DNA of 45,012 nt from Acidobacteriota bacterium (GTDB taxonomy: Bacteria; Acidobacteriota; Vicinamibacteria; Vicinamibacterales; CAVVIG01). The stretch is from NCBI GenBank assembly GCA_003222395.1, contig QHWB01000076.1, positions 1 through 45,012 on the forward strand, in the 5' to 3' direction. Below the pieces are notes generated by a model. That model saw nothing but the letters and a program-made list of their open reading frames with translations. It ran no database searches and was not told the DNA's origin. Numbering within the stretch: position 1 is the first letter of the stretch; each line of letters begins with the position of its first letter. The position numbers were made by a program, and so were the translations under genes. Below, one piece after another: positions 2,578-19,344 of the stretch.

Positions 2578-2640
2578 GTAACGAAGCTTCGCCTCAGACT
2601 GCCGAGCAAAAGCTCGTGCGGACGAGCGAATCTTCGTTAC
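2578..2640. terminator. Inverted repeat between convergent genes (bidirectional terminator candidate)
   Basis: Arms GTAACGAAGCTTCGC (2578-2592) and GCGAATCTTCGTTAC (2626-2640) are reverse complements except for one base. Inside lies a small CGAGC-AAAA-GCTCG hairpin (2603-2616). The structure fills the gap between the stop of the plus-strand pseudogene (2572) and the stop of the minus-strand flavoprotein (2640-2642). It lacks a T-tract on either side, so it could instead be a dispersed palindromic repeat. Confidence 0.5.
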
Positions 2641-3902
2641 TAGGATTCCTCTCCGTAGAAGCTTTCCAGGCTCGGCGTGGCCCGTACCGGCGCGGATCGC
2701 GTGAGCCGGACTCCGCCGGTCGGAGCGCGCATCGCTGCGAAAAACGCGATGGCCGCGCTCACGTTCTGCTGACGCACTTCCTCATTGGGTTCGAGCGACC
2801 AGTTTCCGCGTTCCTGCATGTTGCCAATGACGAGCCCGTCGCTTCGCGGATTTATGCTCGCGTTGATAGTGCTGTTCAGGAGACGGCCCGACGCCCGATA
2901 GTGCACTTCGGGCTGCGGGATGCACACGGTCAGCTGCCCTCTGATCGGCACGAGCTCGTCGTCGTTGAAGAGTGTTTTTGATCCCAAGCCTGTGCAATTG
3001 ATGATGACCGGCTCGTTCAGCGACATGAGATCGCGCGGCGTGTCGAACTTGCGGATGACGATCTTGCCGCCGAAGAGCAGGAAGTCGCGCACCAGCGCGT
3101 CGAGATAGATCGACGGCTCGATCGCCAATGCCTGCGTGCGGATGGCGTACTTGGTTGGAAACGGATGTTCGCCCGGGCCCAGCACTTCCCGGTCGCGTCC
3201 AGTCCGCAGGTGCTCAGGAACCAGATCTCCGTCAGGACCTCCGCCCACAGGAAGAGTCGGATCGTCTGTGGCGTTGTAGTTGTCGATCCAGTAGACGCCG
3301 TAGCCGGGGGCGCCGGCGAGGAGCTGGAGCTGCCGGTATGAGATCTCTGCCGCCTGCCTGAACTGCGCGTCCCACGCCGGCGTGCGCTGCTCCGCGGACA
3401 CCAGCCCCGCGGTTGGCGTGAAGCCGGCGGACGACATGTTTGACGTGGTGTACGGCGGCACAGCCAGCGTGTAGATCGTCACGGCGAAGCCGCGGCGTTG
3501 GAGCTGTCGCGCTGCGGTCAGGCCCGGCGAACCACAACCGAGCACCGCCGCACGCCGGTCTCCTTGTTCGAGCGCCATGTCGGCCGCCATCGCTCCGCAG
3601 CCCCAGGCCAGCGACATGCCGGCCCCACCGAAGCCGTAGTCGTGGATGACTGTCTTGTCATCGAACTTCATCCCCTTGAGGACGAAGCCAGAGTCGCGGT
3701 GAGGGCGCAAGCCGATGGTCGTCCGGATGACCCGATCCCACGTGATACGGGGAGGCGTCAAGTCAATCGCGGGCCGCGGCGCGAACGCGGGTACGGCCTG
3801 CCGTGTCGGCGCCGTCTGGATCACTTTCTTGGGGCCGCAGCCGGCGAGGCCGAATCCGGCGAGCGCCATGCCGCCGGTCTTGAAGAAATGTCGCCTATCC
3901 AT
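2640..3902 (-). CDS. Exported D-amino-acid-oxidase-like FAD-dependent oxidoreductase
   Basis: About 420 residues of the DAO (D-amino-acid oxidase) flavoprotein family. After the start comes a twin-arginine motif (RRHFF) and a short hydrophobic stretch ending in a lipobox-like LAGC (Cys22), so it is probably Tat-exported and may be lipid-anchored. The dinucleotide-binding loop AVLGCGSPGLTAARQLQRRG and the DAO signatures TIGLRPHRDSG, GFGGAGMSLAWG and INCTGLGSKTLFNDDELVPI are present, supporting oxidative deamination of a D-amino acid or related amine using FAD. The ATG at 3900-3902 is preferred over the one at 3908 because GAGG sits about 7 bases before it. It is the last gene of a minus-strand operon behind the PLP enzyme (3974) and the receptor (5271). 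Substrate is not deducible; other DAO-family amine oxidases remain possible. Confidence 0.82.
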   Translation of the reverse strand: MDRRHFFKTGGMALAGFGLAGCGPKKVIQTAPTRQAVPAFAPRPAIDLTPPRITWDRVIRTTIGLRPHRDSGFVLKGMKFDDKTVIHDYGFGGAGMSLAWGCGAMAADMALEQGDRRAAVLGCGSPGLTAARQLQRRGFAVTIYTLAVPPYTTSNMSSAGFTPTAGLVSAEQRTPAWDAQFRQAAEISYRQLQLLAGAPGYGVYWIDNYNATDDPTLPVGGGPDGDLVPEHLRTGRDREVLGPGEHPFPTKYAIRTQALAIEPSIYLDALVRDFLLFGGKIVIRKFDTPRDLMSLNEPVIINCTGLGSKTLFNDDELVPIRGQLTVCIPQPEVHYRASGRLLNSTINASINPRSDGLVIGNMQERGNWSLEPNEEVRQQNVSAAIAFFAAMRAPTGGVRLTRSAPVRATPSLESFYGEES

Positions 3903-3911
3903 GCTCATCCT

Positions 3912-3961
3912 CAGACTTCCAATTTCAGACTTCTGAACTTCAGACTTGAAACGTCAGACTT
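3912..3961. repeat. Four CAGACTT heptamers at 14-15 bp spacing
   Basis: CAGACTT occurs at 3912, 3926, 3941 and 3955, with GAACTT between some copies. It fills the intergenic gap between the PLP enzyme stop and the flavoprotein start. The period (about 1.4 helical turns) and position inside an operon are unusual. A simple-sequence origin or a protein/RNA binding array are both possible. Confidence 0.7.
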
Positions 3962-3973
3962 CGAACTTCGGTT

Positions 3974-5227
3974 CTACTGGGAGTGACCGCGCCCGGTAAT
4001 CGGCCAGACCACTTCGACTTTGTCTTTGCGTGTGCCGTAGATCCAGTCGTACTCGTTGACGGCCGGGTCGCAGTGCGGAACGATGCACTCGAGTTTGTCG
4101 CCGATCTTGTAGGACTTGCTCGGCGTGCCTGTGATCTTGATCGACCCGAACTCGTCGGACCCGGCGTTGTAGTCCATGCCGGGTTCGCCGATCACGCCCG
4201 CGTTCGGTTTGTTCAGCGTGAACGCCTTCGAACCGCCGTCGGTCGTCAGAAGGCCGGGGAATCTGTTGTTGAGAACCGTCACGAGCACGGTCAAGGACGG
4301 CTGGAAATCGGTGTACGTATTCGGGTCGTCCTGACCGCCGATCGCGAGGTACTGCATGTCCATGAACAGGTAGCTGCCGACTTGGACGTCGGTGAAGCCG
4401 GACGTCTGGTGCATGATGTTGTAGGTCCCGCTTCCGCCGCCGCTGAAAATCTCCGTGTTCAGGCCGGCCTTCTTCAACATCGCGAACACTTCCGCATTTG
4501 GCTCGATGTTCTTCAGCGCGCGCTCCTTCCGTTCGGCGAACCCTTTGATATGCTGCGCGCCGCCGTCGTACGAAAGCACGCCGCGGAGCTTCAGATTCGG
4601 CAGCGTGTCGATCACTTTGGCCAGCGACAGGACGCCTTCTCCCGGGGGAATACCGCTGCGGGTCCCGACGGCGACATCGATGACGACGTCCGCGACGACG
4701 CCCGCTTCCTTGGCGGCGGCCGACAGATCCCGCGCGTTCTCTTCCAGATCCACCGCCTGAATGAAGCTGCTGCTGCGCTTTCTGATGGCCATCGCGCGGC
4801 GGATCTTGCTCCGCGATGGATTGCTGGTCGTCATGCACACCTTCTCGACGCCGTTCTCGAGCATCGCCTCAGCCTCGCTCACCTTCGCGCAGCAGATCCC
4901 GATGGAGCCGGTCGCGAGCTGATATTTCGCGATGGCGGCGCACTTGTGCGTCTTCGTGTGCGGCCGGCTGGCGATGCCGTTCGCCTTCACCGTCGCCTGC
5001 ATTTTCGCGATGTTCCGCTCCATCTTGTCCAGGTCCACGCACAACGCGGGCGTGTCGAGTTCCCATTTCGAGATGCCGGGCTTCACCTTGTTGTCGACCG
5101 TGGTCATCGCGAGCATCTCGGCGGTCGAATAACCATTCACGGATTTCGGAATCCAGAAATACGCAGAGGCAGCCGCTGCACCCGACAGGAACGCACGTCG
5201 AGACGCCGTCGATGTTCGTAAGCTCAT
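3974..5227 (-). CDS. Tat-exported D-threonine-aldolase / D-serine-dehydratase-like PLP enzyme
   Basis: 417 residues, alanine-racemase-fold type III PLP enzyme of the DSD1/D-threonine aldolase family. The N-terminus carries a Tat motif (SRRAFLSG, residues 9-16) and a hydrophobic stretch, so the enzyme is predicted to work in the periplasm. The PLP-lysine motif RPHTKTHK lies at residues 88-95. The metal site near the C-terminus reads HCD (His385, Asp387) in HCDPAVNEYDWIYG. H-x-D is the pattern of D-threonine aldolase, whereas D-serine dehydratase uses H-x-C, so aldolase activity (D-3-hydroxyamino acid to glycine plus aldehyde) is the better guess. The start is ATG 5225-5227; the open frame continues further upstream, but that part overlaps the receptor gene and has no signal peptide. 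It lies 43 bases behind the receptor stop and 71 bases before the flavoprotein start. Confidence 0.82.
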   Translation of the reverse strand: MSLRTSTASRRAFLSGAAAASAYFWIPKSVNGYSTAEMLAMTTVDNKVKPGISKWELDTPALCVDLDKMERNIAKMQATVKANGIASRPHTKTHKCAAIAKYQLATGSIGICCAKVSEAEAMLENGVEKVCMTTSNPSRSKIRRAMAIRKRSSSFIQAVDLEENARDLSAAAKEAGVVADVVIDVAVGTRSGIPPGEGVLSLAKVIDTLPNLKLRGVLSYDGGAQHIKGFAERKERALKNIEPNAEVFAMLKKAGLNTEIFSGGGSGTYNIMHQTSGFTDVQVGSYLFMDMQYLAIGGQDDPNTYTDFQPSLTVLVTVLNNRFPGLLTTDGGSKAFTLNKPNAGVIGEPGMDYNAGSDEFGSIKITGTPSKSYKIGDKLECIVPHCDPAVNEYDWIYGTRKDKVEVVWPITGRGHSQ

Positions 5228-5270
5228 TGCCGTCCTCCACCTGTTACCGAATGGGGCTGGATCCTCGACG

Positions 5271-8200
5271 TCACCAAAACAGCCGCAACAGGAATTGGCC
5301 GGTCCGAGGGAAGCCGGCCTGCGACGTGATGGTGCCGAAGCTGGACCGACCAAATCGCGAGTCTCCGCCGCTCACGAACTTCGGGTTGTTGGTGGCGTTT
5401 AGCATCTCGATCCGGATCTGGGCCTTCAACCCGCTCCGCAGGCCGATTGTCTTGGCCAGCACCACGTCATAGTTCGTCCGGAAGGGGGTGCGAATCCGAG
5501 GGTCGGTCCGCGCGCCGGTCCCGAACGTGAAGGGAGCCGCCGCCTTGTACGCCGCCGGATTGATGTAGTTGTTCAGCCGGTCGACAGTGCTTCCAGCCGT
5601 CACCGGATCCACGCCGGTCCAATTAGGGCGTTGAACACCGCTGAAGGAGCCCGTGTTGTCGGCGTTCTGAACGATGTTCTCCGGGAAGCCGCTCTCGTAC
5701 GTCGCGATGGCCGAGACGGTCCATCCGCCGGCGACTGCATTGGGCAACCCGTGTGTCGCCCACGGTTTCCCCTCGCCGAACGGCAGTTCCAGAATGGGGG
5801 ACAGGATCACTCGGTGCGGCGAATCCAGTAAACTCCGGCTGTATTCCGCGGCCAAGTCGTAGTTGTTGAGCGGCCGCCCGCCCTGATTCTGAGATACGTA
5901 GTAAGTGGGCTCGCCGAACACGTCGTCGTCCAGCCGGCTCCACGTGTAGTGAAACCGCCCACCCCACCCATGGGACTGGCGCTTCTCCAGCTTCATGACT
6001 ACAGCGTGGTAACGAGACCGGGCGCCGGAAGTCTGGCGATCCCGGACGTTGCCAAATTGTGGGAACGGGCGCAGCAGTTGCCCTCGTGCGATCGTCGGCG
6101 AGGTTGAGAATGCCCCGGCTTCGGGGATGCCAAAGAACGGGTTCGGGACTTGCTCTTGAAGCGCCGCCCCCAACGCCAACTGCTCGGGCCGAAGCTGATT
6201 GATGTTCACGAAGGCGGCCCCGGCGCCGCCGTAGCCCAAGTTGTCGCCGCGCGATCCGATGTAGCCGATCGAGACTGCTACATCCCCCCGAAGCTCCCGT
6301 TGCAGGTCAGCCGAGTACTGCTGCACGTAGGGCGATTTCCGATCCTGCGTGACAAAATCGATCTGTCCGCCGACGCCCGTGAGCAATCCCAATGTGTTGC
6401 CGACCGGATTGAGCAATCCGTTTGGAAACGGATTGTCCAGGGCGGCCGTCGGGATCAAACGGCTGGATTGGTCGACGAAAGTTTCGCGGGTGTAACCGAT
6501 CTGTCCGTAGTTGACGGTGCCAGGGCTTATATAAATCCACGGCGACCAAAACAGCCCGTATCCGCCACGCACCGCCGTTTTCTCGTTCAGAGACCAGGCC
6601 AGGCCCACACGCGGTGAAAACTTCGTCTTGGATGGATCGCCCTGATAGTCCGGAAACCCGTCCTGCCCCGCATAGCGCAACCCGCCCCGCAGATCCAAGC
6701 CCGTCTTCGCTGCGAGCGGGCTGACTGCGTTGCGGTCGAAGGCGACCGTGAAGCGGTTCTCCTTCTCCCGTAGTCCCGCCTCATATTCGTAGCGAAGCCC
6801 GAAGTTCAGCGTGAGTTTGGAGTTCAGCCGGAAGTCATCCTGCGCGTAGGCGGCATAGTAGTGAATGAACGCGTCGAGCGGCGTGGAGACGGGCGCTGAG
6901 CTGACGTTACCGGGGTTGCCCGATGGCAGCCCGAGCAGAAAACTGGCGAACCCATTCCCTTCATTCGACCTTGCCACGAATGGGTCGGACTGCGTCCACT
7001 CCTTGTCGAACCTGAAGTCGCCGCTCGCGTCGCCATAGGTGAGCGTGAACGCGCTGATCCGACGGAAGTCGGCGCCGAACTTGAACGTGTGGCGGCCGAC
7101 GAACTTCGAGACGCTGCCGTTCACCGCCCACGAGTCATACGTCGTAGGACTGTACCCTCGGTTGCCGAATATGCGACTGCCATCGGTCGGGCCATAGCCG
7201 TCGATCGTTCCGGAGGGGAACTTCTGGTACGCCACGTCCTTCACGAAGCTGTTGGGGAAGCCCAAACTGGCGAGGTCGTAGCTGAATGGTAATTGGAAGT
7301 CTTCGAATCGGGTCCACCCGTAGCGGAAGGTCATCGTCGTCGTTGGATTCGGAATGAGGGTATTGTTCAGCGACACGATGTGGACTCGCCGCCTCTCGAG
7401 CCCCTGACCCGGATCCGCAAAAGGATTCTGCTCGGCCCAAGCATGCCTATCCTGCTCGTTGTCCGGTTGATAGAGGTACATTCCAGTCAACGACGCCTTG
7501 TCGGTCAACTTGTGCTCGATCTTCGTCGTCAATTGTCGGGCCCAGGTGAAGATCGGCGATGTGTACTGGTAGTTCGCCAACCCGTCCGCGCCGCTGCGTT
7601 GCGCATCCGGCTTCGGAATGAAGCTCGCGAGGTTTCGCGCGACCTTGCTGATGCGATTTGGGGGAATGACGTTCCCCGGGAACGGGTCGCGAACAAAACC
7701 CGAGCCGCTCGGGTTGGGTCGAGTCGTCAGCGGGTCGTAGATGATGATCGGGTTCCCGTTTCGATCGAAGGTCTGTGAGAAATCGCCCGCGCGCTCCCGG
7801 TCCGTCGGGAAGATCAGCAGGTTGGTGAGCGCGGAGTTCGTCTGATAGCCCTCATGCGATAGCCAGAAAAACGTCTTGTTCCTCGCAATCGGGCCCCCAA
7901 AGGATCCGCCCCAGTACCGATAGTACGGCAACGTCGACTTGCCGCGACCGGCTAGCGCGTCGAAGAAGTTCGACGCGAGCGCCCAGTTCGGCCGCGCCTG
8001 CGCGAACCCGCTGCCATGAAACGTATTGCTGCCGGACTTCCCCGTCGTGTTGAACACGCCGCCGCCCGACCGGCCCATCTCGGCGTCGTAGGTGTGGACT
8101 TGCACCTTGACTTCTTCAATCGCCTCTAGGGAGGGAAACGCCGAAGTCCGGTTCGTCAGATCCGTATATGACACCCCGTCGAGCAGGTAATTGTTGGCGC

Positions 8201-8783
8201 GCCGGGGGCCACCTCCCAGGGAGAGGAGCGACCCGTTGCTTTGGTCCTCCATCCGGCTGAAGTACGGGTTGCCCGTTGCGATGACCGTTGCGACCGTTAC
8301 GACGGCCGTCATGTAGGCGTTGCGGTTCAGCGCGGGCAGTGCCTCGAGCGTTTTCTTCTGGAGCACCTCGCCGGTTGAGGCGTTCGAGGTCTCGACGAGC
8401 GGCGGAGCGGCCGTCACCGAGATCGACTCCTCGATCGTTCCCACCTCCATGACGAGGTCGACCGTGATGAACTGCTGCGTCCCGATCGTGAGCCCTCGTC
8501 GTTCGAATGTCTTGAACGCTTGGAGGACCGCGCGCACGGTGTAAGTGCCGGGCAGCACCGCGGCAAAGACGTACTCGCCGCGCTCGTTGCTGACGGTCAT
8601 CCGCGACACGTTGGTGCCTTCGTTGATGAGGGTCACCATCACGCCGGGGATAACGCTGTTGGCGTCCTTCACAGCGCCCCGCAACCCGCCTTGAAACGAT
8701 TGCGAAGCGCCGTCCCTCGCGATCGCGACGAGGAGAAGCGCCGCCGCGAAGATAGATGTCCAGGACAGAGTCGAGCGTCTCAT
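5271..8783 (-). CDS. TonB-dependent receptor with N-terminal carboxypeptidase-regulatory-like domain (Oar-like)
   Basis: 1170 residues from ATG 8781-8783, which has a strong GGAGGAATTTC ribosome site. A signal peptide (MRRST then a long hydrophobic run ending GASQS) is followed by a carboxypeptidase-regulatory-like beta domain (about 30-110, LRGAVKDANSVIPGVMVTLI). Next come the plug (EVLQKKTLEALPALNRN, LLDGVSYTDL) and the 22-strand-type barrel. The protein ends in an aromatic residue (FLLRLFW), the usual BAM signal. Such Oar/SusC-like receptors import ligands across the outer membrane using TonB-ExbBD energy. It is the first gene of the operon with the two exported D-amino-acid enzymes, so its ligand may be a D-amino-acid-containing compound; that is inference. 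The open frame extends to 8867 but the extension lacks a signal peptide. Confidence 0.9.
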   Translation of the reverse strand: MRRSTLSWTSIFAAALLLVAIARDGASQSFQGGLRGAVKDANSVIPGVMVTLINEGTNVSRMTVSNERGEYVFAAVLPGTYTVRAVLQAFKTFERRGLTIGTQQFITVDLVMEVGTIEESISVTAAPPLVETSNASTGEVLQKKTLEALPALNRNAYMTAVVTVATVIATGNPYFSRMEDQSNGSLLSLGGGPRRANNYLLDGVSYTDLTNRTSAFPSLEAIEEVKVQVHTYDAEMGRSGGGVFNTTGKSGSNTFHGSGFAQARPNWALASNFFDALAGRGKSTLPYYRYWGGSFGGPIARNKTFFWLSHEGYQTNSALTNLLIFPTDRERAGDFSQTFDRNGNPIIIYDPLTTRPNPSGSGFVRDPFPGNVIPPNRISKVARNLASFIPKPDAQRSGADGLANYQYTSPIFTWARQLTTKIEHKLTDKASLTGMYLYQPDNEQDRHAWAEQNPFADPGQGLERRRVHIVSLNNTLIPNPTTTMTFRYGWTRFEDFQLPFSYDLASLGFPNSFVKDVAYQKFPSGTIDGYGPTDGSRIFGNRGYSPTTYDSWAVNGSVSKFVGRHTFKFGADFRRISAFTLTYGDASGDFRFDKEWTQSDPFVARSNEGNGFASFLLGLPSGNPGNVSSAPVSTPLDAFIHYYAAYAQDDFRLNSKLTLNFGLRYEYEAGLREKENRFTVAFDRNAVSPLAAKTGLDLRGGLRYAGQDGFPDYQGDPSKTKFSPRVGLAWSLNEKTAVRGGYGLFWSPWIYISPGTVNYGQIGYTRETFVDQSSRLIPTAALDNPFPNGLLNPVGNTLGLLTGVGGQIDFVTQDRKSPYVQQYSADLQRELRGDVAVSIGYIGSRGDNLGYGGAGAAFVNINQLRPEQLALGAALQEQVPNPFFGIPEAGAFSTSPTIARGQLLRPFPQFGNVRDRQTSGARSRYHAVVMKLEKRQSHGWGGRFHYTWSRLDDDVFGEPTYYVSQNQGGRPLNNYDLAAEYSRSLLDSPHRVILSPILELPFGEGKPWATHGLPNAVAGGWTVSAIATYESGFPENIVQNADNTGSFSGVQRPNWTGVDPVTAGSTVDRLNNYINPAAYKAAAPFTFGTGARTDPRIRTPFRTNYDVVLAKTIGLRSGLKAQIRIEMLNATNNPKFVSGGDSRFGRSSFGTITSQAGFPRTGQFLLRLFW

Positions 8784-9980: not shown

Positions 9981-10359
9981 CAGCCCATTCGTTTTGTCAT
10001 TCGCGATCACGACCGGAAGTTCACGGACAGCTTCGATGCGGTGTTTGAGTCAGAAGGCGCTCGAATCGTTCGTACGCCGATTCAGGTTCCCGAAGCGAAT
10101 GCGATCGCCGAACGTTTTGTTCGGACCGCGCGTTCCGAATGCCTCGACTGGCTGCTGATCATGAATGCCGGTCATTTGGAGCGCGCGCTACAGGTGTTCT
10201 TTGATCATTACAATGGGCATCGGGCTCACCGGCGCCTGGGTCTCGCACCGCCAAATCGGCGGCCGGCGCTCGAGCGGTCGTACGGCATGCACGCGATTGC
10301 GGTGAAACGCCGCGATCGGCTTGGCGGGCTCGTTCACGAATATCGAGCTGGCGGCGTGA
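9981..10359 (+). pseudogene. IS3-type integrase-core transposase, C-terminal fragment
   Basis: The plus frame reads IRFVIRDHDRKFTDSFDAVF, then RIVRTPIQVPEANAIAERFV and SECLDWLLIMN, the second half of an rve-type DDE core. It ends with HYNGHRAHRRLGLAPPNRR and DRLGGLVHEYR. Related proteins finish EYELAA-stop. Here a one-base shift near 10345 reads through, while the expected stop TGA stands at 10357-10359 in the neighbouring frame. There is no N-terminal part upstream of about 9981. It differs in sequence from the 892-1713 and 9191-9836 remnants, so it marks a separate insertion. It sits directly at the 5' end of the broken PD40 gene. Confidence 0.75.
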
Positions 10360-11494
10360 CCCAGTCTATTTGCGCACCCTACACGCTCGCTTTGAAGTAG
10401 CCCCGGCCGCCGGCGCGAAGTACGGCGTGATTCCTGTGCAACCGTGGCCGGCCGTTTCGCCCGACGGTCGGACGATTGCCTTCGTGGCGCAAACCGATCG
10501 TGTGCAGTTATGGGGTGCGACCCATCGACGGGTTCGACGCGCGGCCGCTGCCCGACACCACGAACGCACAGTGGCCGTTCTGGTCGCCTGATGGCAGATA
10601 TATCGGCTACATCGCCGACGGCCGCGTGAAAAAGGTCGCCGTATCGGGGGACCCTCGGAAACAATCTGCGAGACCGGCTCACGTGAGGTGCAGCAAGCAC
10701 AGAGCGCAACGTGGAGTCCCACCGGCACGATCGTGTTCGGTGCGCAGGAAGGTCCGCTCCGGCAAGTGCCCGCCGCAGGAGGAACGCCGCAACCGCTCAC
10801 CCAGCTCGACGCCTCGCGTCAGGAAACGTCGCATCGTCATCCTTATTTCCTGCCAGACGGTCGTCATTTCTTGTATCTGGCCCGTAGTGTGATCCCCGAC
10901 CAACGCGGCGTGTACGTCGGCGGATTGGATGGGTCGACACCGAAAAAAGTGCTGAGCGACGACAGCAATGCGATTTATTTCGCGGGGCACCTTCTGTTTG
11001 TGCGGGGCACAACCCTGATAGCGCAGCCCTTCGAACCCGTCGGGCGGCAGGTATCCGGAGCCGCCGCAAGGGTCGCAACTGGCCTGTATATCGCGCCCAC
11101 GATGAGGTATGCACCGTTCGCTGCGAATGGGAGAACCCTGGTCTTTCGTAAAACGCCGCGTGAATTGTCGGAAATCCGGATTGTCGACCGAGCCGGAATA
11201 CTCGTCTCGACTGTCGCTGATCGCGGGAGCTACGACACGTTGGAGCTTGCCGGTGACGATCGCCATCTCATCATCGCGGTTCGTGTGCCGGATACGGATC
11301 GTGCGGCTCTGCGCCTGCTGGACATCGTCAGGCGCGTACCCGAGTCGGTCACGAGCGATGAATCGGATTACGCCAACCCCGTTTGGTCGCACGATGGACG
11401 TTGGCTTGCGTTCGCATCGCAACAGACCGGAGTCTGGGATCTGTACGCACGAGCTGTCGATCGATCCGGAGCCGCGCTACCTCCCGAGGGGTGA
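10360..11494 (+). pseudogene. PD40/TolB-type beta-propeller part of a kinase or sensor, truncated and frameshifted
   Basis: Three plus frames together form the TolB-like WD40/PD40 repeats found behind acidobacterial Ser/Thr kinases or winged-helix sensors. They contain PWPAVSPDGRTIAFVAQ, AQWPFWSPDGRYIGYIADGR, AQSATWSPTGTIVFGAQEGP, HRHPYFLPDGRHFLYLARS and ANPVWSHDGRWLAFASQQTG. The repeated W/F-SPDG-R-I motif is plain. Frame breaks fall near 10512 (GGGG; three G would rejoin) and 10646-10650 (five G; six would rejoin). The N-terminal kinase or DNA-binding part is gone, replaced by the IS fragment, and the frame stops after DRSGAALPPEG, short of the usual end. Fused frame 10688-11494 is open but is unlikely to make a functional protein. 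Confidence 0.75.
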
Positions 11495-11503
11495 GATGTC
11501 CGA

Positions 11504-14500
11504 TTAGAAGTAGTACTTCAATCCAAACTGCACGTTGCGCGGCCCTACTTTCGTTCCGTTGATGACGCCGAAGTTGCTGGCACCGTAAGCGGTTGATGGA
11601 TCGCTGAACACTGGATGGTTGCGTGCATTCTGCGCTTCCATGCGGAACTCGACGCGCTGGCCCTGCTGCACTTGCCAGCTCTTGATCAGCGCCACGTCGA
11701 GCATGTTGACCCTCGGCCCGCGAATGTCGAGCGTGCGCGGCGCAGTACCAAACGTGTCCGGCGCCGGACGCGAGAACGCGGCTTGGTCGAAATAGTTGTT
11801 CAACCGGTCGTGAATATCCCCCGGCGTCGCCGGGTCGCCGATCAGGTTCGGACGCTGCGTGCCGTTCCAGAGCGTTCCGCCCGACTGAGTGACCTGCAGC
11901 GGGAAACCGGACTGTAGCGTGAAGAATGCGCTGATCTCCCACCCGCCGATCACCGCATCGACCGGACGGCTCACGCCGGAGCCGAAACGGCGGTCACGTC
12001 CGAACGGGAGCTGCCAGTCACCAGTGGCCACAAAGCGGTGCTCCACATCGTGCTGCGAGAGCGAATGCTCCATGGCGAGATCGAGCGGGTTTTGAAAGCT
12101 GGTGGTCCCGCCGAGCCAGGCCAGGTTACCATCCGTGATCGACGCATCGTCGATCATCCTCGACCACGTGTAGTGCGTGAGAAGGGTCAGCTCCCGGGAG
12201 AAGCGCTTCTCGTATTTCAACTGCAAACCGTGATAATTCGAATCGGCGGCATTTGGATCAGATCCGCTGACGAACTCATATTGGGGCATGTTACGCAGCA
12301 GCCGGTATTGCTGAATCGTCTTGCCATTCAGATTGACTGCCTTGGGATCGGTGATGATGCCGTAGAACGGATTCGGCACTGCGGCCTGTAACTGCGCCCG
12401 GGTGTACTGTGCGTGCGGGCCCAGCCAGTAGACCGGATCCAGCGGGCTCAGCGACGTATACGGCGAATAGAGGTGCACACCGCGGCTGCCGGTGTAGTTG
12501 ACCTCCACGATGGAGCTCCAGCCGATGTCGCGTTGGATGGAGAGATTCCACGAATACATTTCGGGATTGCGAGTCTGCCGCGTAATGGTGCCGACGCCCA
12601 GTCCGATGTACGTCATATCACCGAGCGAACGCCCCGGAGGTGTCAGGATGCCCTGCGGATATGGGTCCGACAGCGTCGCATTTCGCGTCGCGCCGCTATC
12701 CAGCGACCACGGCACAGCGGAGTCGGTGTTGAAACCGGCGCCCGTGTGGCCCGAGACCGTGGCGCGCGAGAGCAGGAAGAACCTGCCGGCCCCAGCGCGA
12801 ATCGCGGTCTTGTCATTGAGTGCGTATGCAAAACCCAGGCGCGGACCAAAGTTGTTGTGATTGATATCGAACGGCGAGGGGGTCTTGTCGTCGACGAACT
12901 TCACCACGCCTTTCAGGTCGTACCCGGACACGGAGATGGGCGACTTCGCGTTCAAATCCCAATAGCTGTACCGGTTCTGCAGTTCTGTCCGCGGCACTTC
13001 GTACTCGTAGCGCAGTCCCAGATTCACCGTCAGCTTGCGCGACGTCTTCCAGTCGTCCTGAACAAAAAATCCGCGGTATCCCGCGCGCGAAAAGGCTTTC
13101 GGATCGATATGGAAATTCGAACCGTTGCCCCACCCGAGGAGCACCGACGCGAAACCGTTCCCTTGATAGCTGTTGCCAGTATTCAAATCCTCGCTGGTCG
13201 TCTGAGCGCCGAAAACAAAGTGGCCCGAAGGATATCCGGGCTGCGCGTAGTCCAAAAAGTTCTGCCGGACTTCGGCGCCCGCTTTGATGTTGTGGCCTCG
13301 CAGGATCTTGGTCATCGAGCCCGAATACTGGTGCACACCCTCCTGCCGGTCCATCTTCCAGTAGCCTTGCGTGCCCATGTCCGAATAGCCGCCGGCGCTG
13401 AACATCGGGAAAACATGCAGCGTCGCCGTGTCCTGCATGTACTTGGGGAGCCCCAGCGTCGTTTCGTCGAACGCCGCGTTGAAGGGATCGCGGCCGTAGT
13501 TGGAGTAGATGAGGCCGTACGTGAAAGTCCAGAGGGTGGTGGCATTCTGGACGAACGTGAGATTGCTGGTTGCGGATTTGGTTTTCGTGAAACTCGGTCC
13601 GTTGTAAGGGTCCGCCGCGGAGAGGGCCGGGTCCGCCAACGCGTACAGGTTCGGCGGGGCGTTGTGATTCCGGTTCTCGCTGAACCGCGCAGTCACACGG
13701 AGCTGGTTGTTGAAGCTGTGGTCGACTTTGAGATCGTACTGCTTGGCAAAGCTCTGTCCGATCCCCTGCATGAACCAATTGTTGATATGCGTGATCGGAT
13801 TCGGGTCCTGGTTCGGCTTCGGATAATACTGCAGCGCCTTCAGTGCGACTTTGTCCAGCAGCTCCGGCGGAATCACGTTGCCGGGAAACGGTCTTCGTTT
13901 TGTGATGCCCTGGGCATCCTTGTAGGTATCGAACGGGTTATAGATCGTGATTGGCTTGCCGTCGCTGAAAAACGTCTGCGAGAAATCGCCTCGTCGCTGT
14001 TCGAGTGTCGGGACCGTCGCGGTCGCGCTCGACGGGCTACTCGATCGCGTATATTCGAAGGTGGCAAAAAAGAAGGTCTTGTTTTTCCTGATAGGCCCGC
14101 CCAGCACGCCGCCGACTTGATCGCGATGGTAATACGGCTTCCGAGAACCATTACGATTCGCGGCCCAGGAGTTCGCATTGAAAGTGGAATCTCTCAAGAA
14201 GTCGTAGCCATCGCCATGGAACGCATTCGTGCCGGACTTGGTCACGACGTTGATGATGGCTCCGCCCGATTGCGCGTACTCGGCCCCGAAGAAGTTCGTC
14301 TGCATCTTGAATTCCTGCACCGCATCCACCGACGGGGTCCATTTCAGGTCTGTAGCCCCGGTGTTCTGCTCCGTGGTGTTGACGATCGCGCCGTCCACCA
14401 GCACGTCCGAGGTGGAATTTCGTGTGCCGTTCGCAACGAAGTTTGTGTTGCTCGGGCTGATGGTGCCTGCTGCGCCATTCACTCCCGGTGTCAGATTCAA

Positions 14501-14980
14501 CAGACTGAGAGGGTTTCGGCCGATGTTCGGCAGCGCCGTCATGTACCGGTTTTCGATCACCTGTCCAAGCGTCGAGATGGTGATGTTCAGAAGCGGCGCC
14601 TGGCTCCGAACTTCGACCGTCTCGGCGACTTCGCCAACCTCCAATGAAACATCGAACGTGGCCTGCTGCTGGACGGCCAAGGGAATGTTGGTGTGAGTGT
14701 ACGTCCTGAACCCGGTCAATTCGACGCTGAGCGTGTACTGACCGGGCGGTAGAGCGGTAACGACGTATCGACCCGCATCATCGGTCGTAACGTTGTGCGG
14801 CACGTTGCGATCCGATTCTGTGACAGTGACTGTCGCTCCGGGGATTGCGCCACCGCTGACGTCGGTGACGACGCCCCGTACCGCGGCCGTGTATGACGAC
14901 TGCGCCCAGGCAACACCCGAAACCGCGAGTGCCATGCAGAGCAAGGAAATAGCTCGCAAACGGTTTTGGATTTGACTCAT
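11504..14980 (-). CDS. TonB-dependent receptor, Oar-like, second copy
   Basis: 1158 residues, start ATG 14978-14980 behind GGAGGGGG. A signal peptide (MSQIQNRLRAISLLCMALAV, cut near AWAQ) precedes a carboxypeptidase-regulatory-like domain (AAVRGVVTDVSGGAIPGATV). The plug region has NRYMTALPNIGRNPLSLLNL and DVLVDGAIVN, and the barrel ends in QFGLKYYF with a terminal Phe. It is an outer-membrane, TonB-energised importer of unknown ligand. Its stop at 11504 lies 9 bases from the end of the PD40 pseudogene and no enzyme genes follow, unlike the 5271 receptor, so it appears monocistronic. It is only distantly similar to the other two receptors and not a recent duplicate. Confidence 0.9.
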   Translation of the reverse strand: MSQIQNRLRAISLLCMALAVSGVAWAQSSYTAAVRGVVTDVSGGAIPGATVTVTESDRNVPHNVTTDDAGRYVVTALPPGQYTLSVELTGFRTYTHTNIPLAVQQQATFDVSLEVGEVAETVEVRSQAPLLNITISTLGQVIENRYMTALPNIGRNPLSLLNLTPGVNGAAGTISPSNTNFVANGTRNSTSDVLVDGAIVNTTEQNTGATDLKWTPSVDAVQEFKMQTNFFGAEYAQSGGAIINVVTKSGTNAFHGDGYDFLRDSTFNANSWAANRNGSRKPYYHRDQVGGVLGGPIRKNKTFFFATFEYTRSSSPSSATATVPTLEQRRGDFSQTFFSDGKPITIYNPFDTYKDAQGITKRRPFPGNVIPPELLDKVALKALQYYPKPNQDPNPITHINNWFMQGIGQSFAKQYDLKVDHSFNNQLRVTARFSENRNHNAPPNLYALADPALSAADPYNGPSFTKTKSATSNLTFVQNATTLWTFTYGLIYSNYGRDPFNAAFDETTLGLPKYMQDTATLHVFPMFSAGGYSDMGTQGYWKMDRQEGVHQYSGSMTKILRGHNIKAGAEVRQNFLDYAQPGYPSGHFVFGAQTTSEDLNTGNSYQGNGFASVLLGWGNGSNFHIDPKAFSRAGYRGFFVQDDWKTSRKLTVNLGLRYEYEVPRTELQNRYSYWDLNAKSPISVSGYDLKGVVKFVDDKTPSPFDINHNNFGPRLGFAYALNDKTAIRAGAGRFFLLSRATVSGHTGAGFNTDSAVPWSLDSGATRNATLSDPYPQGILTPPGRSLGDMTYIGLGVGTITRQTRNPEMYSWNLSIQRDIGWSSIVEVNYTGSRGVHLYSPYTSLSPLDPVYWLGPHAQYTRAQLQAAVPNPFYGIITDPKAVNLNGKTIQQYRLLRNMPQYEFVSGSDPNAADSNYHGLQLKYEKRFSRELTLLTHYTWSRMIDDASITDGNLAWLGGTTSFQNPLDLAMEHSLSQHDVEHRFVATGDWQLPFGRDRRFGSGVSRPVDAVIGGWEISAFFTLQSGFPLQVTQSGGTLWNGTQRPNLIGDPATPGDIHDRLNNYFDQAAFSRPAPDTFGTAPRTLDIRGPRVNMLDVALIKSWQVQQGQRVEFRMEAQNARNHPVFSDPSTAYGASNFGVINGTKVGPRNVQFGLKYYF

Positions 14981-15322: not shown

Positions 15323-18300
15323 CTAGAACGCCAACCGGAACCCGAAGCGAAACTGCCGTGAGCGCCCCATTGCCCAGTTCGGATCCGTCGATAGGATCTT
15401 CCCGAAGTTGGAGCTGTTGACGTTTCCGTTCGGATTGGAGAAATGAGGTGTGTCGGTGATGTTGAAGCCCTCCGCCCGGAACTGCAGATCCACCGTCCCC
15501 GGCAGTTTGAAGGTGCGGAAGAGGCTCAAATCCAGATTCCGTTGGCCGGGGCCGCGCATGCTGTTCCGGCCCACGTTTCCGAACCGGACTTCCGTGACCC
15601 GCTTGAACGCGGTCGTGTCGAAGTACGTGGCATCCCCGACGTTGCCGAAGATCTCGACCGTATCTTTAATCTGATCCGGGGTCTGCTGGTTGTGCGGCAT
15701 GTTCAAAGAGGCGCCGGACCCGGTCAACGTAAACGGCCGCCCCGAGTAGGCGCTGAAGACGCCATTCAGTTGCCACCCTCCAAGGACGGCATTGGAGAGA
15801 CCGGTTGTCGCCCACGGTTTTCCGGTGCCGAACGGGAGCTCCCACACAGCGGCCAGCTGGAAGTTGTGCGGCGTATCGAACGACGCGAGCGCGCGGTTGC
15901 GATCGAAGACGCTCGGAGCGTTCCATAGGAACTCCGTCCAGTCGCCGTAGTTCGCCATGTCCATGGCCCTTGAGAACGTGTACGCGCCCTTGAGTAGCAA
16001 GCCATCCGTCAAGTGTCGATTGATCGAGGTCTGCAATGCGTGGTAGGTGCTTTGCGTGCGGCCATCCCATTCTCTCGTCGCCGTCGTGCGCCCGAACTTC
16101 GCAAAGAGCGGGCGTCCGGCGTCACCTGCGCCGGGGATCTGTCCGGCGTTGATATCCAGAAACGCGAAGCCGCGCACCGATTGGGACCCGACGTATCCCA
16201 GAGTCCCGAGGATTTGAAATGGCAGCTTGCGCTCGAAGATCACGTTCCAGGACTGAATGTAACCGCGGTGCAGCATCGTGTTCGCACGCGGGTAGCCGGT
16301 CTCGGCGACAGCGGGCAGGGGCACCCTGCCCGTATTGATGTCGGGGCAGCAGATCGATGGGATGCCGACATTCGGCCCGAGCGGCTGGTTCGGAATTCCC
16401 GCCGCGATGTACCCCAGGTCGGTGGTCACTGGTTGATACCCGTTGACGCCGGTGAACTCGGCCACGAGCGTCAGGGGATACCAGCCGCGCAGCGCCTGCG
16501 CGCCCCACGGGTGCGAATGGTACGTGATGCCATAGCCGCTTCGAACGACCGTTGAATCGGTAACCTGATACGCGAAGCCGAGACGAGGCGCAAACAGCGT
16601 CTTGCTGTAGCCGACGCCGTTATCCCGGGGAATGCCACCCTTACCGCCAATCAAGGCTTCGTTGGTGTTCGGGTCATACGACTCGATCCCCAATCCTTGC
16701 GAGCGCCGCCGGTTCGGGTAGAGCTCCCATCTCAATCCGAGATCGAGCGTCAGCGTCGGCCCGGCGCGCCAACGATCGCGCATGTAGAGTGCGTACTGCT
16801 CCTCCATGCTGTCCATCTGGATGAACTGACTGCTCTTCCCGGATCCGTTTGGCGTGCCGATCAGAAATCCGGCGAGGGCATTCCAATCGTTCTCGAATGA
16901 TGGAGTCCCTCCTTGAAATCCCACGGAGGAGGCGAGGGCCTGCGGATTCAACGCGGTCACACCGGAACCGAAAGTGAACGCGCCACGCGGCCCTTCCCCC
17001 AGCTCCGGCTGCCAGTGATTCATCAAGTGGTGAACGAAATCGAAGCCGAACCGGATGTCGTGCAGCCCCTTCATCCAGCTTGCGTTGGTATTGAATGTGT
17101 ACGACTGGTCGTTGCGGAACAGGGGATTCCAGCCTTCCGGATTGCCCAAGGTTGAAAACCCCGCAATGTTCAAGGGCGGCATGCCACCTTCGCGCGGGTC
17201 CGGGCCGTTGGTTCCTGGAATTCCTAGAATGTCCGAACCGAAGTTGGATCCGAGATCGGGCGGGCGCACGTCCTGTCCGAATCGCGTCCAGCCGAGCGTG
17301 CCGTCGATCAGGAAAGTTCGCGAGACGGTGTAGGTCTGTCCGATTCCCCCGATCTGCACGAGCGTGTCGCCGGTGCCGAGCCCACCTCCAGCGCACAAGC
17401 AACTGCCTCCTGCCTGGCCAAGTCCGAACTCACCGTGAACGAGCGCTTTCATCGCGCTGTACTTGAACCACAGCAGATGCCGCTCGTTGCGGTTCCAGTT
17501 GACCTTCGCGTCGAAGTTGTTGCGGTTTAGGCGCTGAACGCCGGTGTTGAAGTAATTCGCGTTATCGCCAGGCTGGTTCGGAAGCGGCACCAGCGCCAGC
17601 ATCTTCATCATCGGGACGTTCAACCGCGATGCGGGGATCACGTTCACGCGGCCGCCGCTGGAGAAAACCGCACGGCCGGTGCCGTTCGGATTGCCGGAAA
17701 ACGGATCGAAGATCATCCCTTGCTGAAGTGGAACCAGACCCCCTTCTGTGGTCGGAACCATGATCGGGCTGCCGCTCCGATCCAGAATCTGCGCGCCCAG
17801 CTTTCTGTTGAAATCCCCCGTGCGGAAATCAGCGGTGGGAACGGAAAAGAGCACGGAGTTGCCCAGGCTTTCGAACGTGCCTTCGTAATTCGCAAAGAAG
17901 AACAGCTTGTTTTTCCTGATAGGGCCGCCGAAATTGCCGCCATCGATATTGCGATTGCTGATCGGCTTCTCCTTGATGCCGGCTCGCTTCTCATCCCATG
18001 TCAGCGTGCGCAGCGCCTTGTTGTCGTTCATGGCGAAGGCGGTCCCGCGGAAATTGTTCGTGCCCGCCTTCGTGATCACCGTGACGGCAGCGCCGCCCGC
18101 CATGCCCTGCTCGGCATCGAAGCTGTTCGTCGCGATGTTGACTTCCTGAATGCTTTCCACGGGAGGGACGTACACCGCATGATGCGGCATCGTCACCAGA
18201 GTGTCGGCCGACCCATCGACCCGCGTGTTGTTGGCGCCACGCTCCTGGCCGTTGACATTGGTCGTCAGGGAACGTCCCGGCGTATCGGTGACGGCGTTCT

Positions 18301-18841
18301 GAAACCGCGCGGGTACAGCGCCTGGCACGAGATTGAAGAGCGACTGGTAGTTGCGATAGCCGGAGAGAGGGAGATTCTCCATCGCAGGCGTATCGAAGCT
18401 GACGCTGACGTCGGACTTCGTCGTCTGGAGTAGCGCCGTTATGGCCTCCACGCGCACTTCTTCGGACAGGGCGCCGACCTGAATCGTCGCGTCAACGCGT
18501 GTCACGGCGTTGATGGAAACGCTGATGCCTTTCTGAACGTACGGTTTGAAGCCGCTTATGCTGACCGAAAGGTCGTAACCCCCCTCGGGCAGGTTGGGAA
18601 TCGAATAGTAGCCGACCTCGTTCGTCGTCGTCTGGCGAGACAGGCCGGTGGACGTGTTCGACACGGTCACGGCGGCCGTGGGAACCATGGCGCCGCTCTG
18701 GTCGGTCACGGTTCCGACCATCGATCCGTAGAGAACCTGCCCCGACGCAGGACGGGCTGGATACACCGTCAGGAACATGCCGATGGCCAACCAGGACAGA
18801 ATGACTGTAGCCCTTCGCACTCCTGTCAGTCTTTTCGCCAC
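15323..18841 (-). CDS. TonB-dependent receptor, Oar-like, third copy
   Basis: About 1172 residues from a GTG start at 18839-18841, chosen because GGGAGG stands a few bases before it and the signal sequence (LTGVRRATVILSWLAIGMFL, cut near ASGQ) follows directly. The open frame extends to 18997 but the added residues look non-coding. Domains: a carboxypeptidase-regulatory-like beta domain (MVGTVTDQSGAMVPTAAVTV), the plug (FDTPAMENLPLSGYRNYQSL, NNTRVDGSADTLV) and a barrel ending RQFRFGFRLAF. Role: TonB-dependent outer-membrane uptake of an unknown ligand. A cysteine-containing loop (GGSCLCAGGGLG) and SICCPD are unusual in such barrels. It stands alone, with a hairpin at its 3' end, and is divergent from the padR gene on the right. 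Confidence 0.88.
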   Translation of the reverse strand: MAKRLTGVRRATVILSWLAIGMFLTVYPARPASGQVLYGSMVGTVTDQSGAMVPTAAVTVSNTSTGLSRQTTTNEVGYYSIPNLPEGGYDLSVSISGFKPYVQKGISVSINAVTRVDATIQVGALSEEVRVEAITALLQTTKSDVSVSFDTPAMENLPLSGYRNYQSLFNLVPGAVPARFQNAVTDTPGRSLTTNVNGQERGANNTRVDGSADTLVTMPHHAVYVPPVESIQEVNIATNSFDAEQGMAGGAAVTVITKAGTNNFRGTAFAMNDNKALRTLTWDEKRAGIKEKPISNRNIDGGNFGGPIRKNKLFFFANYEGTFESLGNSVLFSVPTADFRTGDFNRKLGAQILDRSGSPIMVPTTEGGLVPLQQGMIFDPFSGNPNGTGRAVFSSGGRVNVIPASRLNVPMMKMLALVPLPNQPGDNANYFNTGVQRLNRNNFDAKVNWNRNERHLLWFKYSAMKALVHGEFGLGQAGGSCLCAGGGLGTGDTLVQIGGIGQTYTVSRTFLIDGTLGWTRFGQDVRPPDLGSNFGSDILGIPGTNGPDPREGGMPPLNIAGFSTLGNPEGWNPLFRNDQSYTFNTNASWMKGLHDIRFGFDFVHHLMNHWQPELGEGPRGAFTFGSGVTALNPQALASSVGFQGGTPSFENDWNALAGFLIGTPNGSGKSSQFIQMDSMEEQYALYMRDRWRAGPTLTLDLGLRWELYPNRRRSQGLGIESYDPNTNEALIGGKGGIPRDNGVGYSKTLFAPRLGFAYQVTDSTVVRSGYGITYHSHPWGAQALRGWYPLTLVAEFTGVNGYQPVTTDLGYIAAGIPNQPLGPNVGIPSICCPDINTGRVPLPAVAETGYPRANTMLHRGYIQSWNVIFERKLPFQILGTLGYVGSQSVRGFAFLDINAGQIPGAGDAGRPLFAKFGRTTATREWDGRTQSTYHALQTSINRHLTDGLLLKGAYTFSRAMDMANYGDWTEFLWNAPSVFDRNRALASFDTPHNFQLAAVWELPFGTGKPWATTGLSNAVLGGWQLNGVFSAYSGRPFTLTGSGASLNMPHNQQTPDQIKDTVEIFGNVGDATYFDTTAFKRVTEVRFGNVGRNSMRGPGQRNLDLSLFRTFKLPGTVDLQFRAEGFNITDTPHFSNPNGNVNSSNFGKILSTDPNWAMGRSRQFRFGFRLAF

Positions 18842-19344
18842 AGGACGCCTCCCTTCGACTGCGGTACGAGCCAGCAATGAACGACCGTCGCCCGCGTCGG
18901 CGGGCGCCGATCCATCGCGTCGGTCGGATGGCCGAAGAACACCGACGCAGGTCAGGCGTGGACAGAACGGAAGCGGAACGTGAACCGGCGCGCACAATGC
19001 ACCTCGCGTGGTTCACCGGGCCTCCAGGAGGTCGGAGCCGGAATGTTTGCGTCCGCCGACCGGTTTGTCAAGTGGAATGAGGTACGTTTACCGTCGGCTC
19101 GCAGCACGTTCGAAGGGTCTGCGCGCGTCGCCGCGGAGATTGATGGACGCCGGTGTGACGGTGACTGCAACCCGGTACCTCGGCACCATCCACTCGCTCG
19201 TCATGCGAACTGCGGCGCCGCGGCGGCTATTTCGAGCATGATCGAGCGTCGCAGGCGCGTCCCCAGAGACAATGCCCATGCACATGCTGTGGCAGCGTCT
19301 GGCTCCAAGGTGTGCTGCGTCGCGAGTTCAGTGATCCCTACCCC
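18842..19344. other. Divergent intergenic region, no gene seen
   Basis: This lies between the start of the minus-strand receptor and the padR promoter. It must contain the receptor promoter. Short frames on both strands show no recognisable domain. Confidence 0.4.

Follow-up and report, generated by a model that had tools for sequence, protein, structure and literature searches.

Two questions are raised by this locus in the draft genome of a soil Acidobacteriota bacterium: whether neighbouring genes for an outer-membrane receptor and two putatively exported enzymes constitute a dedicated route for D-amino acids, and what kind of protein the second of these enzymes is. The window, that is the whole stretch of DNA analysed, comprises 45,012 nucleotides. 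In the first-pass annotation a receptor, a DSD1-like enzyme and a flavoprotein were placed in this order on the minus strand, with gaps of 43 and 71 bases. The order is real and the coordinates agree: the receptor and DSD1-like genes are separated by 43 bases, whereas the DSD1-flavoprotein gap measures 71 bases with the ATG at 3902 and 65 with that at 3908. All four copies of AAGTCTGA found on either strand of the window are located in the latter gap. The features are as follows.

5271–8783, minus strand: gene for a TonB-dependent, Oar-like outer-membrane receptor (ATG at 8783, stop at 5271), preceded by GGAGGAGG.
3974–5227, minus strand: gene for a D-threonine-aldolase/D-3-hydroxyaspartate-aldolase-like PLP enzyme (DSD1 fold type) with a Tat motif (ATG at 5227).
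3909–3973, minus strand: gap with four copies of AAGTCTGA spaced by 14–15 bases, read from the sequence.
2640–3908, minus strand: whole gene for a flavoenzyme of the Tat-lipoprotein type, a circularly permuted D-amino-acid oxidase (DAAO; ATG at 3908 or 3902).
3837–3908, minus strand: predicted Tat signal with lipobox (MSMDRRHFFKTGGMALAGFGLAGC), read from the sequence and kept in relatives.
3567–3731, minus strand: residues 60–114 of the flavoenzyme, the C-terminal segment in DAAO, with R68 as the Arg283 equivalent (HDYGFGGAGMSLAWG; aligned with 7ct4 and 6rkf).
2733–3560, minus strand: residues 117–392, the N-terminal segment in DAAO, with the GxGxxG FAD-binding site and the substrate domain (VIA alignment).

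The receptor matches OMP_b-brl_4 (4.9e-193) and CarboxypepD_reg of Pfam above the cut-offs. The product of the middle gene (P0002) possesses both domains of the D-threonine aldolase/DSD1 fold type, Ala_racemase_N (PF01168, 1.7e-23) and D-ser_dehydrat (PF14031, 3.1e-12), again above the cut-offs. Its best match in the PDB is 6qkb (9.5e-67), followed by 7dib, 7yqa and 4v15, and the alignments to D-threonine aldolase and the D-3-hydroxyaspartate aldolase BhcC (4v15, 7dib, 6qkb) extend over almost the whole mature protein with E values of 7e-57 to 1e-66. The lysine of the RPHTK motif, H427 and D429 align with positions 59, 347 and 349 of 4v15, so that the comparison with solved structures that had been proposed for the H-x-D site reveals a site of the D-threonine aldolase type; we take the aligned lysine to be the PLP lysine and H-x-D to be the metal site. 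The score against the NCBIfam model for BhcC 3-hydroxy-D-aspartate aldolase (NF045642) is 279.8 bits, under the cut-off of 690, which places the enzyme outside the BhcC equivalog.

The flavoprotein (P0001) scores 78.6 bits against Pfam DAO (cut-off 27.9), with its segments in other than the canonical order: the strand-helix unit carrying the arginine and the HxYGxGGxG motif, which ends DAAO, precedes the FAD-binding GxGxxG. Comparisons of sequence, rotation and fold concur that this protein is a circularly permuted DAAO. In phmmer alignments against the PDB, residues 60–114 match 7ct4 320–374 and residues 61–112 match 6rkf 280–334, while residues 260–389 match 6rkf 147–270. With profile A1, the best domain of a Streptomyces DAAO (L110) scored 72.3 bits in its native order but 168.3 after rotation, which also made the two out-of-order pieces found by blastp with P0001 (71.6 and 48.5 bits) give way to a single one of 109 bits. 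Collinearity was likewise restored in blastp with L112 (65.1 and 52.0 bits before rotation, a single 86.3 after it), albeit the gain with profile A1 was small in this case (74.1 to 81.0), which counts against the permutation. Profile A2 matches 91 ORFs of the fetched loci in one span and 11 canonical DAAOs in two, Rossmann part first; by a strict count two pieces are seen in 10 of the 11, because the pieces of L142 meet at one residue. Among PDB sequences the same profile matches 17 DAAO/DASPO entries, the best stretch never starting before profile position 102, and none spanning the permuted order.

The AF2 model (pLDDT 81.2) is compatible with this. Its alignments with DAAO/DASPO chains start no earlier than residue 114–118; the best alignment places residues 116–392 on 6rkf_B 2–264 (VIA Z 21.0, rmsd 2.9, 257 residues aligned, 23% identity). 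Strands 60–91 and helix 97–113 are left unaligned in front by these sequential aligners, and the moved segment has secondary structure that would suit the place of the DAAO C-terminal strand and helix. The permutation is absent from the first-pass annotation and is the main oddity of the locus.

The 91 permuted ORFs, which include repeats of the same gene (81 distinct cores by one count, 76 in the Tat count below), belong to Acidobacteriota, Pseudomonadota, Chloroflexota and Actinomycetota; those family members that are annotated carry only the name 'FAD-dependent oxidoreductase'. The window comes from a draft assembly in 118 contigs and many of the relatives are metagenome-assembled, as might be expected if the swapped order were an artefact of assembly or annotation. 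However, the order recurs throughout the 91 ORFs in many genomes, and its presence in records titled complete (Niveispirillum, Rhizobium, Kozakia and Bradyrhizobium) rules out faulty assembly; an artefact is thus exceedingly improbable. In a tree of 75 rows, 64 permuted ORFs and 11 canonical DAAOs (nine Chloroflexota and two Streptomyces proteins) are found on opposite sides of one branch (SH-aLRT 100), and the unrotated part alone (74 rows) gives the same split; these are quick trees, with no bootstrap and with an assumed root. The permuted family is therefore set apart from canonical DAAO by a single split on the tree and is spread over several phyla. Matches were obtained in at least 20 of 398 genomes in the genome survey and in at least 12 of 201 in the Chloroflexota survey, the centre genome included in each; both figures are lower bounds, since few candidates (4 and 9, respectively) were scored per genome. 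The permuted case was confined to the centre genome in the Chloroflexota survey, the other 11 matches being to the canonical part only.

The rearranged chain has its break where the last substrate-domain helix of DAAO gives way to the Arg283 strand, and a short loop now connects the former C-terminus to the former N-terminus. This could have come about by duplication and truncation, or by fission and fusion, with a separate C-terminal piece fused in front of a truncated DAAO. A tandem intermediate keeping both copies of the moved segment was sought, and a second match was present in none of the 91 permuted ORFs; duplication thus gains no support from an intermediate, which favours fission and fusion. 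The junction between WG and GxG, on the other hand, is short and uniform (16 to 116 residues, median 17, in 89 ORFs), which argues against fission and fusion, an origin that we regard as conceivable, if somewhat less probable.

What the flavoenzyme does is less clear from its active site. In the register of the phmmer PDB alignment the Arg283 equivalent, R68, is invariant in the 19 rows of profile A2, while the position of Tyr228 is occupied by Ser351; many Acidobacteriota relatives have His at this position and others Tyr. Such variation suggests that DAAO activity may have been lost or changed. The proposal that the ligand is a D-amino acid derived from peptidoglycan or an antibiotic finds no direct support here. 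The protein might instead be a dehydrogenase acting on an opine, an N-substituted amino acid, an imino acid or another carboxylate and passing electrons to cytochrome c or a quinone. Apart from the serine, this would be consistent with the cytochrome c gene directly downstream of the Kozakia flavoprotein gene, with the PQQ enzymes near the gene in L035 and L036 (one in L035 with a cytochrome c domain) and with the methylamine-dehydrogenase heavy chain and MauE near it in L031. However, the invariance of the carboxylate-binding arginine, together with the fact that DAAO and DASPO are the closest solved relatives in both sequence and fold, renders a dehydrogenase of this kind rather doubtful.

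Both enzymes have a twin-arginine motif, which reads SRRAFLS for the DSD1-like enzyme and DRRHFFK for the flavoprotein; beside the latter motif lies a lipobox, LAGC, overlooked previously, so that the flavoprotein looks like a Tat lipoprotein. The motif is visible in 27 of 30 DSD1 loci, window included; the exceptions are L086 and L089, where the stretch starts downstream, and L073, which has none. By a rough rule, a Tat-like signal is present in 66 of 76 distinct flavoprotein relatives, with four ORFs without its motif set aside and with an RR motif still showing in four of the ten misses. A hydrophobic stretch accompanies the motif at the corrected start and is kept in relatives, and the window genome has two TatC genes. 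Pfam TAT_signal gave 13.0 bits for the flavoprotein, below the cut-off of 22.7, and no entry for the DSD1-like ORF, whose scanned form carried 42 additional N-terminal residues. The claim that both enzymes bear twin-arginine signals thus stands as regards the motifs and their conservation, but not by the Pfam cut-off, and it is from motif and conservation that Tat export of both appears likely. In the open-licence literature searched, no paper contained both 'D-threonine aldolase' and 'Tat signal'.

The expectation of a conserved receptor-DSD1-DAO operon was not borne out. Among 45 flavoprotein rows and 13 DSD1 rows the three-gene order occurs in the window alone, and the set of a receptor, an aldolase-type enzyme with a Tat motif and a flavoenzyme of the Tat-lipoprotein type has so far been seen only in this genome. 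The 45 rows correspond to 44 genes, a frameshifted gene in L143 being counted twice, and are a selection of matches drawn from chosen loci (the window, 40 stretches and 24 earlier loci). No DSD1 gene was found in 23 flavoprotein loci within the DNA examined around each, and the window is the only one of 30 DSD1 loci (1.5-kb flanks) with the flavoprotein beside DSD1. Nor did a shared neighbour of the Tat-DSD1 gene emerge from 31 loci with 1.5-kb flanks, where the 14 largest clusters consist of DSD1 and overlapping frames and are followed by groups of three to four loci.

Flavoprotein relatives often adjoin S9 peptidases, PLP or TPP enzymes with Tat signals, or PQQ enzymes. An S9 peptidase lies within 3.5 kb of the flavoprotein in 11 of the 45 rows, a marginal excess over DSD1 loci (0 of 13, p 0.055); such a domain also adjoins the Kozakia gene, and an S15 domain that of L054. 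The neighbour is a Tat aminotransferase V in L018 and a Tat TPP enzyme in L027, and TPP enzymes occur near the gene in rhizobia and Nonomuraea. The matches to ATV in L165, TPP in L168 and TBDR in L035 are weak. None of the six neighbour types sought was present in 26 of the 45 rows, some loci ending at contig ends, and other neighbours (AAA ATPase, PhoU, ketoacyl synthase, DUF2911, protein kinase) look unrelated. Short receptor-like remnants precede the flavoprotein orthologue in L030 (61 bases, 74%) and L011 (45 bases, 87%).

Across genomes, the two enzyme genes co-occur strongly. Among 162 genomes of the order, 44 have both, 15 DSD1 only, 14 the flavoprotein only and 89 neither, a count that ignores phylogeny and in which the 59 'Tat-type' DSD1 genomes were chosen by score, not by individual signal; within the family (n = 27) the numbers for both, either single gene and neither are 8, 1, 4 and 14 (p 0.0027, likewise ignoring phylogeny). 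This co-occurrence, the gene order, the Tat motifs and the aldolase-type H-x-D site are in keeping with the pathway originally envisaged, in which a D-3-hydroxyamino acid or a D-amino-acid-containing compound would pass through the receptor to the periplasm and be processed by aldolase and oxidase in sequence. One relative, L145, again pairs the receptor with a Tat aldolase-like enzyme, in the order receptor, Tat aminotransferase, Tat DSD1; its receptor is 59% identical to that of the window. The products of D-threonine aldolase, in turn, are glycine and an aldehyde, not typical substrates of DAAO, and among the loci examined the enzyme genes are adjacent only here. The argument for a dedicated D-3-hydroxyamino-acid pathway comes from gene neighbourhood, and we consider such a pathway improbable. 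From the earlier reading as a whole, the receptor, the Tat-motif enzymes, the H-x-D site and the co-occurrence survive; the conserved operon does not, and the ligand finds no direct support.

The locus is best read, with fair probability, as one of periplasmic amino-acid or peptide catabolism involving a new structural variant of DAAO. Both enzymes would fold with their cofactors in the cytosol, cross via Tat and act in the periplasm, where the lipid-anchored flavoenzyme may oxidise an amino acid, probably a D-amino acid, to the 2-oxo acid, its electrons passing to O2 or a periplasmic cytochrome c. It would work alongside further exported enzymes of catabolism, the receptor or a neighbouring peptidase supplying the material. 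A bolder and unlikely extension of this periplasmic reading is that one ancient DAAO permutation founded a widespread clade of Tat-exported lipoproteins, cytochrome c-coupled amino-acid dehydrogenases at the centre of an envelope peptide-catabolic set (receptor, S9 peptidase, exported PLP and TPP enzymes) that would perform deamination and decarboxylation before the cytoplasm is reached.

DAAO is a textbook flavoenzyme with use in biotechnology (PMC4699246). The occurrence of a natural permutant in several phyla would demonstrate that DAAO tolerates joining of its two termini and opening of the fold at another point, and would yield new enzymes whose free ends lie elsewhere. Periplasmic amino-acid catabolism would, moreover, become directly testable through PLP, TPP and flavin enzymes that are exported and lie next to receptors and peptidases.

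From D-threonine aldolase and BhcC the DSD1-like enzyme differs in carrying a conserved Tat motif. DAAO and DASPO are usually cytosolic or peroxisomal enzymes. With them (PF01266 DAO; 2du8, 6rkf, 7ct4, 1c0i) the flavoprotein shares, besides the fold, GxGxxG, the Arg283 equivalent and the HxYGxGGxG...WG motif, and it is distinguished by the swapped segments, the signal of the Tat-lipoprotein type and the serine at the Tyr228 position. No title or abstract in the open-licence literature searched reports a permuted DAAO. A permuted beta-sheet is noted between electron transfer flavoprotein and monoamine oxidase (PMC2916828), and counts of non-sequential alignments are given for the FAD/NAD(P)-binding fold (PMC2213659). 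Whereas those permuted FAD-binding sheets come from comparisons of distant families, the permutation described here is internal to a single family whose segments are each homologous in sequence.

The three genes lie on the minus strand in the order given by the first-pass annotation, as confirmed by their open reading frames and Pfam domains, separated by 43 and 65 bases, in a genome of 7.74 Mb (118 contigs):

5271-8783, minus: TonB-dependent Oar-like receptor (Pfam OMP_b-brl_4)
3974-5227, minus: DSD1/D-threonine-aldolase-type PLP enzyme (Ala_racemase_N and D-ser_dehydrat)
2640-3908, minus: DAO-family flavoprotein (DAO)

When the flavoprotein was compared with PDB sequences using phmmer, residues 60–114 matched the C-terminal end of D-amino-acid oxidase (DAAO; 7ct4, 320–374), residues 116–179 matched 1c0i 5–72 and residues 260–389 matched 6rkf 147–270. 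The pieces thus match DAAO in swapped order, indicating circular permutation. Each of two canonical Streptomyces DAAOs (L110 and L112) gave two blastp pieces out of order, which rotation in silico merged into a single alignment, from 71.6 and 48.5 to 109 bits for L110 and from 65.1 and 52.0 to 86.3 bits for L112; the best-domain score against profile A1 rose from 72.3 to 168.3 bits and from 74.1 to just 81.0 bits, respectively. The AF2 model (pLDDT 81.2, pTM 0.79) found its best fold matches in DAAO and D-aspartate oxidase (DASPO) chains, which aligned just from residue 114–118 to about 392 (6rkf_B: VIA Z 21.0, rmsd 2.9, 257 aligned). Strands and a helix at 60–113 remained unaligned in front of the matching part, an arrangement that, in the model, would fit what permutation predicts. 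A second profile, A2, built from 19 permuted members, gave 23 matches in the PDB, none spanning the permuted order; 17 were DAAO/DASPO sequences, with the best stretches within profile positions 102–364, and the remaining six were weak matches to other flavoproteins. We conclude that the flavoprotein is a D-amino-acid oxidase that has undergone circular permutation in nature. Among the papers listed in searches of open-licence literature, none describes a permuted DAAO in its title or abstract.

Among all fetched loci, 91 ORFs match A2 in one span, whereas 11 canonical DAAOs match it in two pieces, Rossmann part first (10 of 11 by a strict non-overlap count). By the query range covered, 58 of the order's 162 genomes carry the permuted form, as do 26 of 297 sampled from the phylum and 20 of 398 sampled Pseudomonadota (search-centre genome counted); Niveispirillum, Rhizobium, Kozakia, Nonomuraea and Bradyrhizobium records contain it too. 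Twelve of 201 sampled Chloroflexota genomes match; the search-centre genome is permuted and the other 11 cover the canonical part only. A single branch (SH-aLRT 100) separates permuted from 11 canonical rows in trees with the rotated segment (64 permuted rows) or without it (63), a split compatible with one permutation event.

Each of the two window enzymes starts with a twin-arginine motif; the flavoprotein carries a lipobox, LAGC, as well. The Pfam TAT_signal model stays below cut-off; export via Tat is predicted from the motif and its conservation, and the genome holds two TatC genes. A rough rule assigns a Tat-like signal to 66 of the 76 distinct permuted members, 60 of these with a Cys in lipobox range. 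The permuted family is broad and, judged by these signals, mostly of Tat-lipoprotein type. Four of five rows of a rhizobial/actinobacterial clade (L106, L108, L109 and L130) have no Tat-like signal, and TPP (thiamine-diphosphate) enzymes flank signal-less members. In rhizobia and Nonomuraea (L106, L109, L111, L108) a TPP enzyme comes after a permuted flavoprotein that shows no visible signal; this flavoprotein is divided between two annotated genes in L111, and preceded by an FAD-binding oxidoreductase in L106 and L109. These gene sets probably represent a cytosolic pathway.

In the register of the phmmer alignment, R68 and S351 correspond to human DAAO positions 283 and 228, both of which appear in the title of mutant structure 4yjd. 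R68 is invariant in A2 (19 members); the S351 position is occupied in relatives by His or Tyr, among others. Given this residue and its variation, substrate preference may differ from that of DAAO.

The periplasmic route proposed in the first-pass annotation is supported in part: the twin-arginine motifs are kept in relatives, but the receptor–DSD1–flavoprotein order was found in the window only among the flavoprotein and DSD1 loci surveyed. In L145 (G323) a receptor 59% identical to that of the window precedes a Tat-motif class V aminotransferase (6947-8222, plus), which spans two overlapping frames and is apparently frameshifted, and then a DSD1 gene product 87% identical. L030 (G320) and L011 (G322) encode flavoproteins 94% identical at the protein level, the L030 gene (8001-9174, plus) being split into two overlapping ORFs. 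Upstream of these genes lie receptor-like stretches (61 bases at 74% in L030, 45 bases at 87% in L011), and L030 has a further 113 bases at 83% to DNA in front of the window's receptor; these short stretches suggest rather than prove that the receptor–flavoprotein linkage predates the window genome.

Within 3.5 kb, an S9 peptidase was present in 11 of 45 flavoprotein rows (44 genes, hand-picked loci) versus 0 of 13 DSD1 rows (p 0.055). Other neighbours in the flavoprotein rows were a PQQ enzyme (5), receptor (4), TPP enzyme (2) and class V aminotransferase (2); 26 rows had none of the types sought, and at many other loci the neighbours appear unrelated. In Kozakia, an S9-domain hydrolase, the flavoprotein and a cytochrome c are encoded consecutively. 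A TPP enzyme with an apparent Tat motif (L027:6064-7998, plus) directly precedes a Tat-type permuted flavoprotein, and a Tat-motif class V aminotransferase (L018:6458-7879, plus) adjoins another. In Woeseiaceae (L031:9501-11233, plus), genes for a methylamine-dehydrogenase heavy chain and MauE are found close to the permuted flavoprotein.

In the window itself, four AAGTCTGA repeats spaced by 14–15 bases fill the 3909-3973 gap before the flavoprotein gene and are absent from the rest of the window. Two further Oar-like receptor ORFs lie upstream on the minus strand, at 11504-14980 (OMP_b-brl_4, 33% identical to the set's receptor) and about 15326-19012. Transposase ORFs with rve_3 integrase cores (892-1824 and 10041-10400) flank the three genes, which suggests IS activity around the set.

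In the order, 73 of 162 genomes have a DSD1-like match at 1e-60, and 59 of these, sorted by eye from the match table, hold the closer copy. This copy and the permuted flavoprotein gene occur together in 44 genomes, DSD1 alone in 15, the flavoprotein alone in 14 and neither in 89 (Fisher p 6e-15, kinship ignored); the respective counts in the window's family are 8, 1, 4 and 14 (n=27; p 0.0027, kinship ignored). Identity with the BhcC equivalog was rejected, the score lying far under the cut-off. In alignments with D-3-hydroxyaspartate aldolase (6qkb) and D-threonine aldolases, the DSD1-like enzyme retains their PLP lysine and H-x-D metal site.
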